This document shows, one piece after another, positions 1 to 55,990 of a stretch of DNA of 64,000 bases. The stretch is from contig NZ_JOMG01000002.1 in assembly GCF_000711225.1 (NCBI RefSeq), forward strand, positions 1,252,501 through 1,316,500, written 5' to 3'. The first letter of the stretch is position 1; every line of letters begins with the position of its first letter. Below the pieces are notes generated by a model. That model searched no databases, was not told the DNA's origin, and saw only the letters and a list, made by a program, of their open reading frames with translations. Position numbers and translations under genes: made by a program. This DNA is from Pelobacter seleniigenes DSM 18267 (GTDB lineage Bacteria > Desulfobacterota > Desulfuromonadia > Desulfuromonadales > Geopsychrobacteraceae).

Positions 1-2099
1 AGGCCGCCCAGGTGTGGTTCGGTCAGGTCCTGGTCCGGGAACCACCAGCCGTAGTCCACGTTCACCACCTGTTCTTTCATGGCACAGATTTTCAAGGTGA
101 ATTTTGCCCGGCCGCGAGCGGTTTCCACATACACCTCCTGGCCGTCGACAAAACCCAGATCACTTGCGGTTTCCAGACTGATTTCAGCTTCCGGCTGTTG
201 ATTATTCTTTTTCAGCGTCTGCAGCTGGCGGAAGGACGAAGCCCAGTAGGGCTGCTTGCGCCCGCCACTGATCAGGGTCAGGGGAAATTCCGCGGTTGGT
301 TTGGCACAGGCCTGATGCTGCGGCAGCGGTTCGGCACCGAGTTCGGCAAGCAGTTCGGAATACAGTTCGACTTTTCCGCTGACCGTTGCAAAGCCAGGCT
401 GTCCTGCTTGCTGCAGCTGTTCATGCTTGCCGTAGCTGGGCGGTGGACAATAGAGTCCGGTCTGGCAGAAACCGGCCCAATCCATACCCAGAGGGGCGAC
501 GATATCCTCAAGGCTGTCGGTAAAGGTTTGCCAAGGCCACTCCCGGTTCTGACCGCAGCGAATCCCGAGGTCTCGCCAGAAGGCGAAATCGGTGCGCCGC
601 TCGAACAGCGGTTCGATTGCTGCCGGTCCGCCATAGGCGAGGTTGGCAACACCGGCATTGGTCTGCAACACCGGTCTTTCCAGGCTGCCGGCCATGGGCA
701 GGACATAATCGCTGAGGGCGGTGACCGGGTTGTGAAACAGCTCAAGGGAGACACTCAGCTCAAGGTTGCGCAGCGCGCGCTCGATCAGCCGGCTGTCCGC
801 CTGGGACAATAGCGGGTTGCTACCACTGACGATCATGGCCCGGATCGGATACGGCACACCGTTCAGCATGGCCCGCCAGACCAGGTTCGGCTGGGCCGAG
901 GTCAGATAGCGGGCCGGCAACCGCTTGCCGTGTTTCATGGTTTCCTGCGTCAATCGCTCGTAACCGGCATAACTCTGCAGGAGAATCCGCTCCCGCCCGA
1001 GCTGCTTGCTGCGCTGCTCTGCGCTGAGCCGTTCGGTCAATTCCAGATCGATTTCCGGGATATAATCGGGCCGTTCCGAGACCAGCGAGGCTCCGCGCCG
1101 GTCGACATTGCCGGTCACCCCCTTGAGGCAGGCGATGCCGCGGTGAACCTGCATGCTGTTGGCGCCGATCTGGTCGATGCCTCGACCGTGAAAAATCGAG
1201 GCCGGCCGGGCCTGGCCATAACTGCGGGCAGCGGCAATGATCTGTGCGGCGGGAATTCCGGTCAGCTCGGCGGTATGGGTCGGGGTATAAGCCCGCACCC
1301 GGTCGCGCAGCTGGCTGAAACCATGACACCATTGTTCGATAAAAGCCGCGTCGATCAACTGCTCGTTAATAATCACCTGCAGTAAACCGAGGGCCAGGGC
1401 CGCGTCGCTGCCCGGGCGCGGGGCCAACCACTGGGTGGCCAAGGCAGCGGTTCGGGTGCGGCGTGGATCGACGACGATCAGCGGTTTGCCGGTTCTGCTG
1501 TAGGCAAGGACCGTGCGCCAGAACAGGGAATTGTCCGATTCAGCCGGATTGACGCCCCAGAGAATCAGACATTCGGTGGTCTCCGGGTCGATTTCGTTTT
1601 CGAGGGGCCAGCCGAAGGTCAGGCTGTTGACCCAGATCGAGGGATTCCAGCAGATCTGACCGATCCCCATATTATTCGGACTGCCGAACAGGTTCAGGAA
1701 GCGATGCAGGGGCCAGAAGGTGGTATGCGGTCCACCGATGGAGGTGGCCAGGGTTTCGCCGCCGAATTGCGCTTTCAACTCCAGCAGGCGTTCAGCGATC
1801 TCGTCGAGGGCATCTTCCCAGCTGATCTGTTGCCACTGGCCGCTGCCGCGCTCCCCTTTGCGCTTCAGCGGATAATTGATCCGTTCCGGATGATACAAGA
1901 ATTCCACATTGCTATGGAAACGCCGGCAACCATTAACAATACCCTCATTATATGGATATCTTTCAGGGTCAGGCTTTATTTTAACTATTTTATTGCCTTC
2001 GCTGAACACCTCGATTCCGCAGAGATAACTGCAGAGTCGGCAGTTCGCCTTGCGCCGTCTGCGAGCGATAAAACGATTCTTTCCGGGTTCAGAACTCAT
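1..2099 (-). CDS. Mo-bisPGD oxidoreductase, Cys-ligated, acetylene hydratase/DMSO reductase superfamily (3' end outside window)
   Basis: The reading frame stays open to the window edge, giving 699 residues of a family usually near 730. An N-terminal [4Fe-4S] motif uses Cys20, Cys23, Cys27 and Cys58. Cys150, in GQICWNPS, sits where the Mo/W ligand lies in acetylene hydratase and related enzymes. Downstream are the usual SWEDALDEIA, VDPRRT and late PSGKVELYS-like blocks (here VSGKVELYSE). The residue after the second Fe-S cysteine is Ser24, whereas acetylene hydratase has a catalytic Asp there, so hydratase activity is unlikely. No Tat signal is visible, suggesting a cytoplasmic enzyme. It lies 54 nt downstream of the CCG-domain Fe-S gene, a likely electron partner. 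The substrate cannot be told from sequence. Confidence 0.9.
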   Translation of the reverse strand, partial: MSSEPGKNRFIARRRRKANCRLCSYLCGIEVFSEGNKIVKIKPDPERYPYNEGIVNGCRRFHSNVEFLYHPERINYPLKRKGERGSGQWQQISWEDALDEIAERLLELKAQFGGETLATSIGGPHTTFWPLHRFLNLFGSPNNMGIGQICWNPSIWVNSLTFGWPLENEIDPETTECLILWGVNPAESDNSLFWRTVLAYSRTGKPLIVVDPRRTRTAALATQWLAPRPGSDAALALGLLQVIINEQLIDAAFIEQWCHGFSQLRDRVRAYTPTHTAELTGIPAAQIIAAARSYGQARPASIFHGRGIDQIGANSMQVHRGIACLKGVTGNVDRRGASLVSERPDYIPEIDLELTERLSAEQRSKQLGRERILLQSYAGYERLTQETMKHGKRLPARYLTSAQPNLVWRAMLNGVPYPIRAMIVSGSNPLLSQADSRLIERALRNLELSVSLELFHNPVTALSDYVLPMAGSLERPVLQTNAGVANLAYGGPAAIEPLFERRTDFAFWRDLGIRCGQNREWPWQTFTDSLEDIVAPLGMDWAGFCQTGLYCPPPSYGKHEQLQQAGQPGFATVSGKVELYSELLAELGAEPLPQHQACAKPTAEFPLTLISGGRKQPYWASSFRQLQTLKKNNQQPEAEISLETASDLGFVDGQEVYVETARGRAKFTLKICAMKEQVVNVDYGWWFPDQDLTEPHLGG

Positions 2100-25903: not shown

Positions 25904-26596
25904 TTAATTGGGGCCTTCCCCGTCAGCTTTTTCGCTGGCGAGCAGATCAGGCGGAGCATAACGGTCAACCAGGACATCGTACTCTCCAGTTACCTGATTG
26001 TAGTATTTCAGCCGCCCGTTGCCGATATCGAAATACCAGCCGTGCAGACTCAACCGCCCCTGCGCCACTCGATCCCTGACCCAGGGAAAGGTCATCAGAT
26101 TCTTCAGCGAAACCAGAATGGCCTCCTGCTCACAGGCCCGGGTTTTCTTTTCCAGCGATTCATGAGGCATTGTCGTGAGAACTTTATCGCGGGCAGCAGC
26201 TGCGATATTGACCCATTTGCCGATAAACTCCCCGGTCTCCCTGCCGTCGGCAGAATCCATGAGCGCCGCAATCCCACCGCAACCGGAATGCCCAAGCACA
26301 ATGATGTCGGAAACCTCCAGAATGCAGACCGCATACTCAATGGATGAGCTGACCCCGTGATAATCATCATTCTTCAGATAAGGGGGCACCAGGTTGGCAA
26401 TATTGCGCAGAATAAACAGATCACCCGGTGCACAGTCGGTCATCAGGGCCGGATCAACCCGTGAATCGCAACAGCCGATGAGCAAAGCCTGCGGTTTCTG
26501 CCCTGCCAACAGGGTGCTGGCAAGCTCCGCATTTTCACCAAAATGCTGTTGTTGAAAATTAATAATCCCATTAATAAAGCGGGTCACATCGGCCAT
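25904..26596 (-). CDS. Beta-class carbonic anhydrase
   Basis: 230 residues. Zinc ligands of the beta class are visible: Cys42 in CCDSRVDP, with the Asp44-Arg46 dyad, and His103 and Cys106 in LGHSGCGGI. It interconverts carbon dioxide and bicarbonate in the cytoplasm. The ATG at 26596 is preceded by GGAGG at six bases; the in-frame TTG one codon earlier is not needed. Intact active site, monocistronic. Confidence 0.95.
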   Translation of the reverse strand: MADVTRFINGIINFQQQHFGENAELASTLLAGQKPQALLIGCCDSRVDPALMTDCAPGDLFILRNIANLVPPYLKNDDYHGVSSSIEYAVCILEVSDIIVLGHSGCGGIAALMDSADGRETGEFIGKWVNIAAAARDKVLTTMPHESLEKKTRACEQEAILVSLKNLMTFPWVRDRVAQGRLSLHGWYFDIGNGRLKYYNQVTGEYDVLVDRYAPPDLLASEKADGEGPN

Positions 26597-26632
26597 CAAA
26601 ATCCTCCCTGCTCAGTTGCAGGCATCTTAGCA

Positions 26633-26819: not shown

Positions 26820-26853
26820 AAAAAAAAGCACCCCATCAATGGATATGGGGTGC
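26820..26853 (-). terminator. Intrinsic terminator of the candidate small RNA
   Basis: GCACCCCAT and ATGGGGTGC pair in a 9-bp stem with an eight-base loop and are followed on the minus strand by an eight-T run. No protein gene lies upstream of it on that strand, which is why a small RNA is proposed. Confidence 0.85.
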
Positions 26854-26903
26854 AAAGTGGAGAGAGTTAAACCGAGGAGGTCCAAAGGACCGGCCTTAAC
26901 TCT
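26820..26903 (-). ncRNA. Candidate small RNA of about 84 nt with a UCCUC bulge
   Basis: On the minus strand a sigma-70 promoter, a two-part stem-loop and a textbook terminator follow each other within 120 bp, and no open frame is present. The 5' hairpin pairs AGAGUUAA with UUAACUCU, holds an apical GGUCC-UUU-GGACC and leaves UCCUC unpaired on the 3' side, complementary to the Shine-Dalgarno core. The terminator stem (26828-26853) is followed by eight U. Not matched to a known RNA family by eye. Confidence 0.65.
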
Positions 26904-26909
26904 GGGCTT

Positions 26910-26938
26910 AGGATATAATTCACTATCTTTTCAGTCAA
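26910..26938 (-). promoter_or_regulatory. Sigma-70 promoter of the candidate small RNA
   Basis: TTGACT at 26938-26933 and TATCCT at 26915-26910, spacer exactly 17 bases, AT-rich. The predicted start near 26903 coincides with the first base of the RNA's 5' stem. Confidence 0.65.
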
Positions 26939-27090
26939 GATATTATCCGCTCAGCATAAACTCTTATTTGTCGAGATAAATCCTGGCTCCGCCGGAAGAT
27001 GATTCCATAGCCTCGCCAACTCTTTTCTGTTATGCTGGCCAATTCAACTGCGTTTCTTTAAATATCGAACTGAATTTAACAGAGGTCAAG

Positions 27091-28170
27091 ATGTCGAGCA
27101 GTTTCGGTCGATTTTTCAAAATCAGCACATTCGGTGAATCTCATTGCCCCGGCGTAGGGGTTGTCGTTGACGGCGTTCCGCCGCAGCTGGCCCTCAGTGA
27201 ACAAGATATCCAGGTCCAGCTTGACCGGCGCAGGCCGGGCGGCAACCGCCTCGGCACCGAACGAAATGAAGCCGATCAGGTGCAGATCCTCTCCGGAGTC
27301 GAAAACGGCCTGACCCTGGGCACCCCTATCGGTATGCTGGTCAAAAACAAGGATCAGCGTCCCGGCGATTACGGTTCCATGAGCGAGATCCCCCGCCCCT
27401 CCCATGCCGATTACACCTATCGCATGAAATACGGGATCCATGCCTCCAGCGGTGGCGGCCGGTCCAGTGCCCGGGAAACCATCGGCCGGGTGGCCGCCGG
27501 TGCCGTGGCCGAGAAATTTCTGTTGGAACAGTTCGGTATTGAGATTGTCGCCTGGGTCAGCTCGGTCGGCAACCATGATGCCGCGGCCGTCGATATGAAC
27601 AGTATCAGCCGTGAGTTGGTCGACGAGAACGCGATCCGCTGCCCGGACCCTGCGGCAGCCGCTAATATGACCGAAGAGATCGTCGCGGCCCGCGAAGCCA
27701 AAGACTCGGTGGGCGGAGTGGTCAGCTGTGTCTGTCGCAACCTTCCCGCTGGTCTCGGCGAGCCGGTCTTTGATCGCCTCGAAGCCATGCTCGCCCACGC
27801 CATGCTATCGCTCCCCGCGACCAAGGGGTTTGAACTCGGCTCCGGCTTTGCCGGGGCACGCATGCGCGGCTCAGCCCATAATGACCCCTTTATCAACCGG
27901 GCGGGCAGATTGGGCACCCTGACCAACCATAGCGGCGGGATTCAGGGGGGCATCTCCAACGGTGAGCCGGTCTATTTCCGGGTCGCCTTCAAGCCCCCGG
28001 CAACCATCGGCCAGGCCCAGCAGACGGTAAAATATACCGGAGAAGACGCCTTGCTTGAAGCCAAAGGACGACACGATCCCTGTGTGGTTCCCCGGGCGGT
28101 TCCGATCGTGGAAACCATGACCGCTCTGGTTCTGGCCGATCTGGCCATGATTCAGAAAATGCGCCAATAA
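27091..28170 (+). CDS. aroC: Chorismate synthase
   Basis: 359 residues. It catalyses the last shikimate-pathway step, EPSP to chorismate, using reduced FMN. The three family signatures are present: [14 protein letters not shown] near residue 15, the [14 protein letters not shown]-like [19 protein letters not shown] near 118, and a C-terminal [16 protein letters not shown] near 325. AGAGG lies nine bases upstream of the ATG. A terminator directly follows the gene. Confidence 0.97.
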
Positions 28171-55911: not shown

Positions 55912-55990
55912 TCCCGATAATAGCAAACCCGGAGCGATCCGGGGACGCAAAGCCACGGGTCCCATGTGGATAGCCGGGTTGCCGAAGAAG
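55912..55990 (+). ncRNA. Cyclic di-GMP-I (GEMM-I) riboswitch aptamer
   Basis: All core GEMM-I elements occur in order: AATAGCAAACC, a P2 stem capped by a GCGA tetraloop, GGGGACGCAAAGCCACGGG, a short P3 and ATAGCCGGGTTGCCGAAG carrying the receptor and closing strand. The base before CAAACC, equivalent to G20 of Vibrio Vc2, is G, which favours c-di-GMP; A at this place is the mark of the cGAMP-sensing GEMM-Ib variants known from Geobacter. A terminator hairpin follows directly. Confidence 0.92.

Follow-up and report, generated by a model that had tools for sequence, protein, structure and literature searches.

In the window –the whole stretch of DNA that was analysed, 64,000 nucleotides– a small RNA gene lies between a carbonic anhydrase gene and aroC (Table 1). 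The earlier note had described a stand-alone small RNA here, composed of a sigma-70 promoter, an 84-nt non-coding stretch, a bulged hairpin and a T8 terminator. We found all these elements where it had placed them, and the stand-alone character held as well: the RNA has its own promoter and terminator, its synteny is kept among relatives and no protein frame is conserved. The RNA gene and carbonic anhydrase share the minus strand; aroC occupies the plus strand and is thus divergent from the RNA gene.

Table 1. Position of the small RNA gene, its elements and its neighbours in the window
Feature	Positions	Strand	Remarks
Beta-class carbonic anhydrase gene	25904..26599 (likely ATG 26596)	-	3' of the small RNA, outside the RNA unit
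Small RNA gene, about 84 nt	26820..26903	-	5' end estimated from the -10 element, 3' end from the T run
Intrinsic terminator, 9-bp stem (26853-26828) and T8	26820..26853	-	Stem pairs kept across genomes
Conserved linker UUUAACUCUCUCCACUUUGC	26852..26871	-	CUCUCC at 26864-26859, mostly unpaired; likely seed
5' hairpin with bulge	26863..26903	-	Sequence of this genome only; the 5' hairpin of relatives differs in sequence
Unpaired UCCUC bulge, within ACCUCCU	26874..26878	-	Not conserved as a bulge
Sigma-70-type promoter TTGACT-17-TATCCT	26910..26938	-	-35 TTGACT 26938-26933, 17 nt, -10 TATCCT 26915-26910; from sequence and from relatives with a similar promoter in the same place
Decayed proximal operator TTTATGCTGAGCGGA	26946..26960	-	From operator scoring
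Decayed distal operator TTTATCTCGACAAAT	26966..26980	-	Place of the TTTA-N7-TAAA box of relatives
aroC (chorismate synthase)	27091..28170	+	Divergent neighbour, conserved in nearly all copies

Promoter and fold of the window copy

On its own, the promoter of the window copy is unremarkable to weak, with 9/12 consensus bases matched. The 491-bp region holds three promoter-like sites (0.6 ± 0.9 in shuffles), and a TATATC with 15-nt spacing overlaps the promoter. Relatives present a promoter in the same place, of the form TTGACC (or TTGACG/TTGATC)-17/18/19-TATAYN or a close variant.

The predicted fold of positions 26908-26820 reached -33.4 kcal/mol vs. -20.4 ± 3.2 kcal/mol for shuffled sequences (z = -4.02), and none of 200 shuffles was as good. 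Within it, UCCUC is predicted to be unpaired with a probability of 0.82-1.0, and the surrounding ACCUCCU is identical to the anti-Shine-Dalgarno tail of 16S rRNA. The earlier note had made this bulge the key part of the RNA, able to pair with Shine-Dalgarno sequences. The idea of an exposed C-rich anti-Shine-Dalgarno stretch survives, but its place has to be moved: among the relatives compared –a set without a congener of the window genome– the bulge and the GGUCC-UUU-GGACC arm are absent, which rules out the bulge as a conserved element, and the conserved piece is a CUCUCC in the linker, about 10 nt downstream.

Every copy is predicted to form a 5' hairpin, the sequence of which varies by genus: CGGAG...CUCC in genera g7 and g8, GUGGA...UCCAU in g5. 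The window copy has a rebuilt hairpin, unlike those of its relatives. Most relatives carry an upstream C-rich stretch (CUCC or UCCA) at a similar distance, where it is mostly paired.

Spread and conserved core of the RNA family

Direct DNA similarity searches of 60 relatives, phages and plasmids matched nothing, because only about 40 nt are conserved. The family was uncovered through synteny: the regions upstream of aroC in relatives share TCTCTCC-A-A/C-TTTGC, followed by a terminator. Covariance model R1, which finds the family copies in relatives, detected a single strong copy in each of 19 relatives, which all belong to the bacterial family of the window genome. Model R2, trained on 18 relatives with the window copy left out, agrees. 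It recovered the window copy at 26875-26819(-) with 40.5 bits (E = 4.9e-7 within the window) and as the sole match on the 5.09-Mb window genome (E = 3.9e-5). Across Desulfuromonadales, R2 found one strong match each in 20/136 genomes, all of one bacterial family. The carriers include Malonomonas rubra, Geopsychrobacter and genomes from metagenomes; almost all copies adjoin aroC, and the RNA gene is directed away from it in nearly all of them. Scanning about 85,000 species with a sequence pattern retrieved 11 matches, whose titles are all consistent with this group (Malonomonas rubra DSM 5091, Geopsychrobacter sp., and uncultured Desulfuromonadales/Deltaproteobacteria).

Beyond the bacterial family, weak model matches were seen in genomes G087 and G056. 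The one in G087 (L074, ~1501-1567, minus strand) joins a CCTCCAATTTGCG stretch to a terminator, with R1 E = 1.8e-5 and 27.8 bits for suhB; it is possibly a distant relative or a convergent RNA.

The conserved core across copies is the linker CUCUCC-A-N-UUUGC adjoining a covarying terminator. At the DNA level, TCTCTCC is invariant, with TCTCTCT in two genomes as the exceptions, and the mean unpaired probability of the linker is 0.57-1.0 in all folded copies but one. The earlier note had proposed to look for conservation of the bulge and for covariation of the stem; the former failed, and the latter is found in the terminator. Over 15 genomes its pairs are kept in 100% of cases, and 6/9 pairs changed on both sides. 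These six double changes were matched by 0/500 shuffles, and were absent or nearly absent in slid controls. We suggest that the linker CUCUCC is likely a seed for Shine-Dalgarno pairing.

The conserved stretch could also be read as a short peptide or, on the opposite strand, as the start of an open reading frame, since its complement (GGAGAGACATAAATG in some relatives) resembles a ribosome-binding site and ATG in several g5 genomes. We hold this to be very improbable. The frames that would follow are 9-50 amino acids long and unrelated between genera, and the terminator faces the opposite direction. Besides, the one-base deletions in G014 and the terminator of G033, wholly different in sequence and still paired, fit an RNA and not a frame. 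Frame-breaking indels together with compensatory terminator changes rule out a protein frame.

Altogether, the locus combines its own promoter and intrinsic terminator, a frame that is not conserved, and a conserved single-stranded seed, in a group whose tested genomes all encode Hfq. We conclude that the window holds a real small-RNA gene, of a family new to Rfam and of a known kind (C-rich base-pairing RNA).

Paired operators and the XRE-cupin locus

Just upstream of the -35 element, 19/19 relatives present a pair of 15-bp TTTA-N7-TAAA palindromes with a spacing of exactly 19 bp, at -39..-42 and -20..-23 from -35 and with scores of 9-18; in G006, G036, and G007 the distal box is weaker. We spotted the motif by eye in the small-RNA promoters and tested its specificity afterwards. 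When 17 genomes were searched with the strict double pattern, six of the seven genomes of genus g5 contained exactly two sites, and a reversed control pattern gave no matches in that search. The two sites are the promoter of the small RNA and that of a regulator gene –an XRE-type HTH plus a cupin– directly upstream of methylmalonyl-CoA mutase. Because the double operator stands at the regulator's own promoter, the XRE-cupin regulator is likely autoregulated. Its gene carries mostly two boxes in the genera with the small RNA and mostly one in the genera without; in the window genome it has one.

Several observations touch the same motif. The XRE-cupin gene is present in 53/60 relatives, with TTTA-N7-TAAA boxes before a TTGAC promoter; at L097, L095, L105, L115, and L128 it lies directly upstream of methylmalonyl-CoA mutase. 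In the two genomes of genus g8, a related double or single operator is also found before a carboxyltransferase gene (G014 L169/L200; G007 L199). The NCBIfam model that matches this gene best is methylmalonyl-CoA decarboxylase alpha, with a score under that model's cut-off. A further strict double-operator match in G013 (L176, G013:C29:495241-495274), between BamA-like and OmpH/Skp-like genes, may be chance. In the window genome, a single-box promoter pattern (L225, G000:C4:248702-248752) precedes a gene that, by reading, encodes a branched-chain amino acid substrate-binding-like protein.

The sharing of operators suggests that the XRE-cupin protein could sense a metabolite of the propionyl-/methylmalonyl-CoA branch and drive the small RNA. 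We tentatively propose a new circuit, possible rather than probable as a whole. An XRE-cupin regulator encoded directly upstream of methylmalonyl-CoA mutase would use a paired operator that, in several species, is present at only two sites of the genome: the regulator's own promoter and that of one anti-Shine-Dalgarno small RNA. The RNA would then serve as the output of propionyl-/methylmalonyl-CoA sensing. The window lineage would have severed this connection and, in rebuilding the RNA, gained a second anti-Shine-Dalgarno site.

In the window copy, the best operator-like positions are -42/-22 from -35, the same place as the boxes of relatives. Their scores are at chance, and only TTTAT half-sites are left. 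Since these operators are decayed and the regulator gene has one box, the window RNA is probably uncoupled from the XRE-cupin regulator, and the window genome probably uses a different signal.

The loss of both operators, a 5' half unrelated in sequence and a score of 40.5 bits (45-85 bits in relatives) would also suit a decaying, poorly regulated remnant, with the small RNA working in relatives only. However, the window copy retained the promoter, the linker and the spacing; its 5' hairpin is stable (z = -4.0), and its terminator is perfect and shows compensatory changes. Neutral decay is unlikely to leave these elements, and we regard a remnant as quite unlikely.

Relation to carbonic anhydrase also needs to be weighed. 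In G003 (L013), a TTGACA promoter and a pair of TTTA-N7-TAAA boxes with 19-bp spacing lie in the gap between aroC and carbonic anhydrase, upstream of the latter, and no small RNA was detected in this region; the double-operator promoter may thus sometimes serve carbonic anhydrase. This arrangement in a genome without the RNA, with the boxes directly upstream of carbonic anhydrase, agrees with the main alternative: that the RNA is the terminator-bearing 5' leader of that gene, acting as an attenuator or like a riboswitch, and controls read-through into it. Moreover, carbonic anhydrase is downstream and in the same direction in most copies, often 50-220 nt away, and only about 50 nt past the T run in several g5 genomes. 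We disfavour this alternative and consider it unlikely, as the same gene is not always downstream. The RNA is kept in G006, where a SulP-like transporter gene comes next and carbonic anhydrase is displaced, and in G033, where nothing related follows and carbonic anhydrase is absent; in G011 (L090), carbonic anhydrase is an apparent pseudogene with a stop codon near the start, and the small RNA is intact. Thus, the RNA is not tied to carbonic anhydrase. Besides, a TATGCTANAAT-like motif that resembles an extended -10 was seen by eye in front of carbonic anhydrase, both in several genomes that carry the RNA and in others that lack it. The terminator stem is always intact, and we noticed no alternative anti-terminator pairing.

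Proposed action and comparison with known small RNAs

Our preferred reading, with a probability of about 0.7, is that the window locus is the gene of a trans-acting small RNA, a divergent member of a family unlisted in Rfam and, in the searched genomes, limited to one Desulfuromonadales family. Judged from sequence, the gene is made up of a putative promoter, a predicted 5' hairpin, a C-rich linker CUCUCC predicted to be single-stranded, a covarying terminator and a conserved place beside aroC.

Hfq is encoded in 13/13 genomes tested. This chaperone binds terminators with a long U tail, and it could be expected on the U-rich tail of the terminator here. On target mRNAs, the linker CUCUCC would pair with Shine-Dalgarno regions rich in purines (GGAGAG) and block translation, the direction being presumably repressive; a second pairing site may be offered by the extra ACCUCCU bulge of the window copy. 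As an exposed CUCUCC can pair with GGAG-type Shine-Dalgarno sites, repression of translation in trans is the most likely action. In relatives, the shared operators point to control of RNA transcription by the XRE-cupin regulator, and the RNA would couple propionyl-/methylmalonyl-CoA metabolism to the translation of other genes.

Pattern searches for targets upstream of ATG yielded no gene recurring in more than two genomes. The two-genome leads, named by reading their sequences, were a protein with a lipid-A-disaccharide-synthase-like N-terminus (G016/G020), a cytidylate-kinase-like protein (G006/G025), and an aminotransferase (G025/G031); they were rejected, as they do not exceed the yield expected from a Shine-Dalgarno-like pattern. 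Duplex energies of the linker with the start regions of the regulator, mutase, carbonic anhydrase, and aroC were no better than those of shuffled linkers.

Among known systems, the C-rich-loop 'CUCCUCCC' small RNAs, which include the CcsR (Cuckoo) RNAs of Rhodobacter, expose a C-rich anti-Shine-Dalgarno stretch, and so does the window family. Unlike CcsR, the window family is single copy, has its own promoter beside aroC, lacks tandem repeats and an adjoining partner protein gene, and its motif is CUCUCC in the linker. As for RyhB with Fur, one transcription factor appears to control a small RNA gene along with a metabolic gene set of its own. However, the inferred factor is here an XRE-cupin protein encoded directly upstream of methylmalonyl-CoA mutase, its binding is putative, and the window genome has lost the link.

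The earlier note had also proposed an Rfam search. No family was called at the small RNA locus at Rfam cut-offs, and the best sub-threshold match of the window copy was RF00519 suhB/mmgR (alpha-r8), with 29.0 bits for a cut-off of 41 bits. When 12 other family copies were compared to Rfam, one gave a weak RF00519 match (24.6 bits) and the rest no match. The window family shares with alpha-r8 suhB/MmgR and with SisA-D of Caulobacter a size of ~80 nt, a 5' hairpin, an exposed C-rich anti-Shine-Dalgarno motif and a terminator, and the window copy has the alpha-r8 trait of such a motif exposed upstream of an intrinsic terminator. However, alpha-r8 belongs to a different bacterial class, and its anti-Shine-Dalgarno motif is in the first loop, whereas that of the window family is in the linker. 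The first RF00519 hairpin is not formed in the window copy: in the alignment, the first helix (4 bp) carries non-standard-pair marks at 2/4 pairs, and both its sides fall inside another hairpin of the predicted fold. SisA-D are Hfq-associated, likely act through an anti-Shine-Dalgarno 10-mer and are opposed by a carbon-starvation sponge RNA (PMC12559287), and MmgR has been linked to carbon storage (PMC7143759).

Literature searches found no description of this aroC-adjoining RNA, nor of any base-pairing small RNA for this group of Desulfuromonadales, an order of many metal- and electrode-reducing bacteria. For this family, the seed is conserved, a chaperone is likely and there is a specific candidate for the transcription factor; thus, regulator, RNA, and targets are directly testable in cultured Malonomonas rubra. 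Going beyond the earlier note, the most interesting part is the double operator common to the small RNA and the XRE-cupin/methylmalonyl-CoA mutase locus and lost in the window lineage, where the window copy provides a natural example of a small RNA retained after its original operators were lost.

Finally, elsewhere in the window, positions 55913-55987 on the plus strand match the c-di-GMP-I-GGC riboswitch aptamer of Rfam with 68.3 bits.
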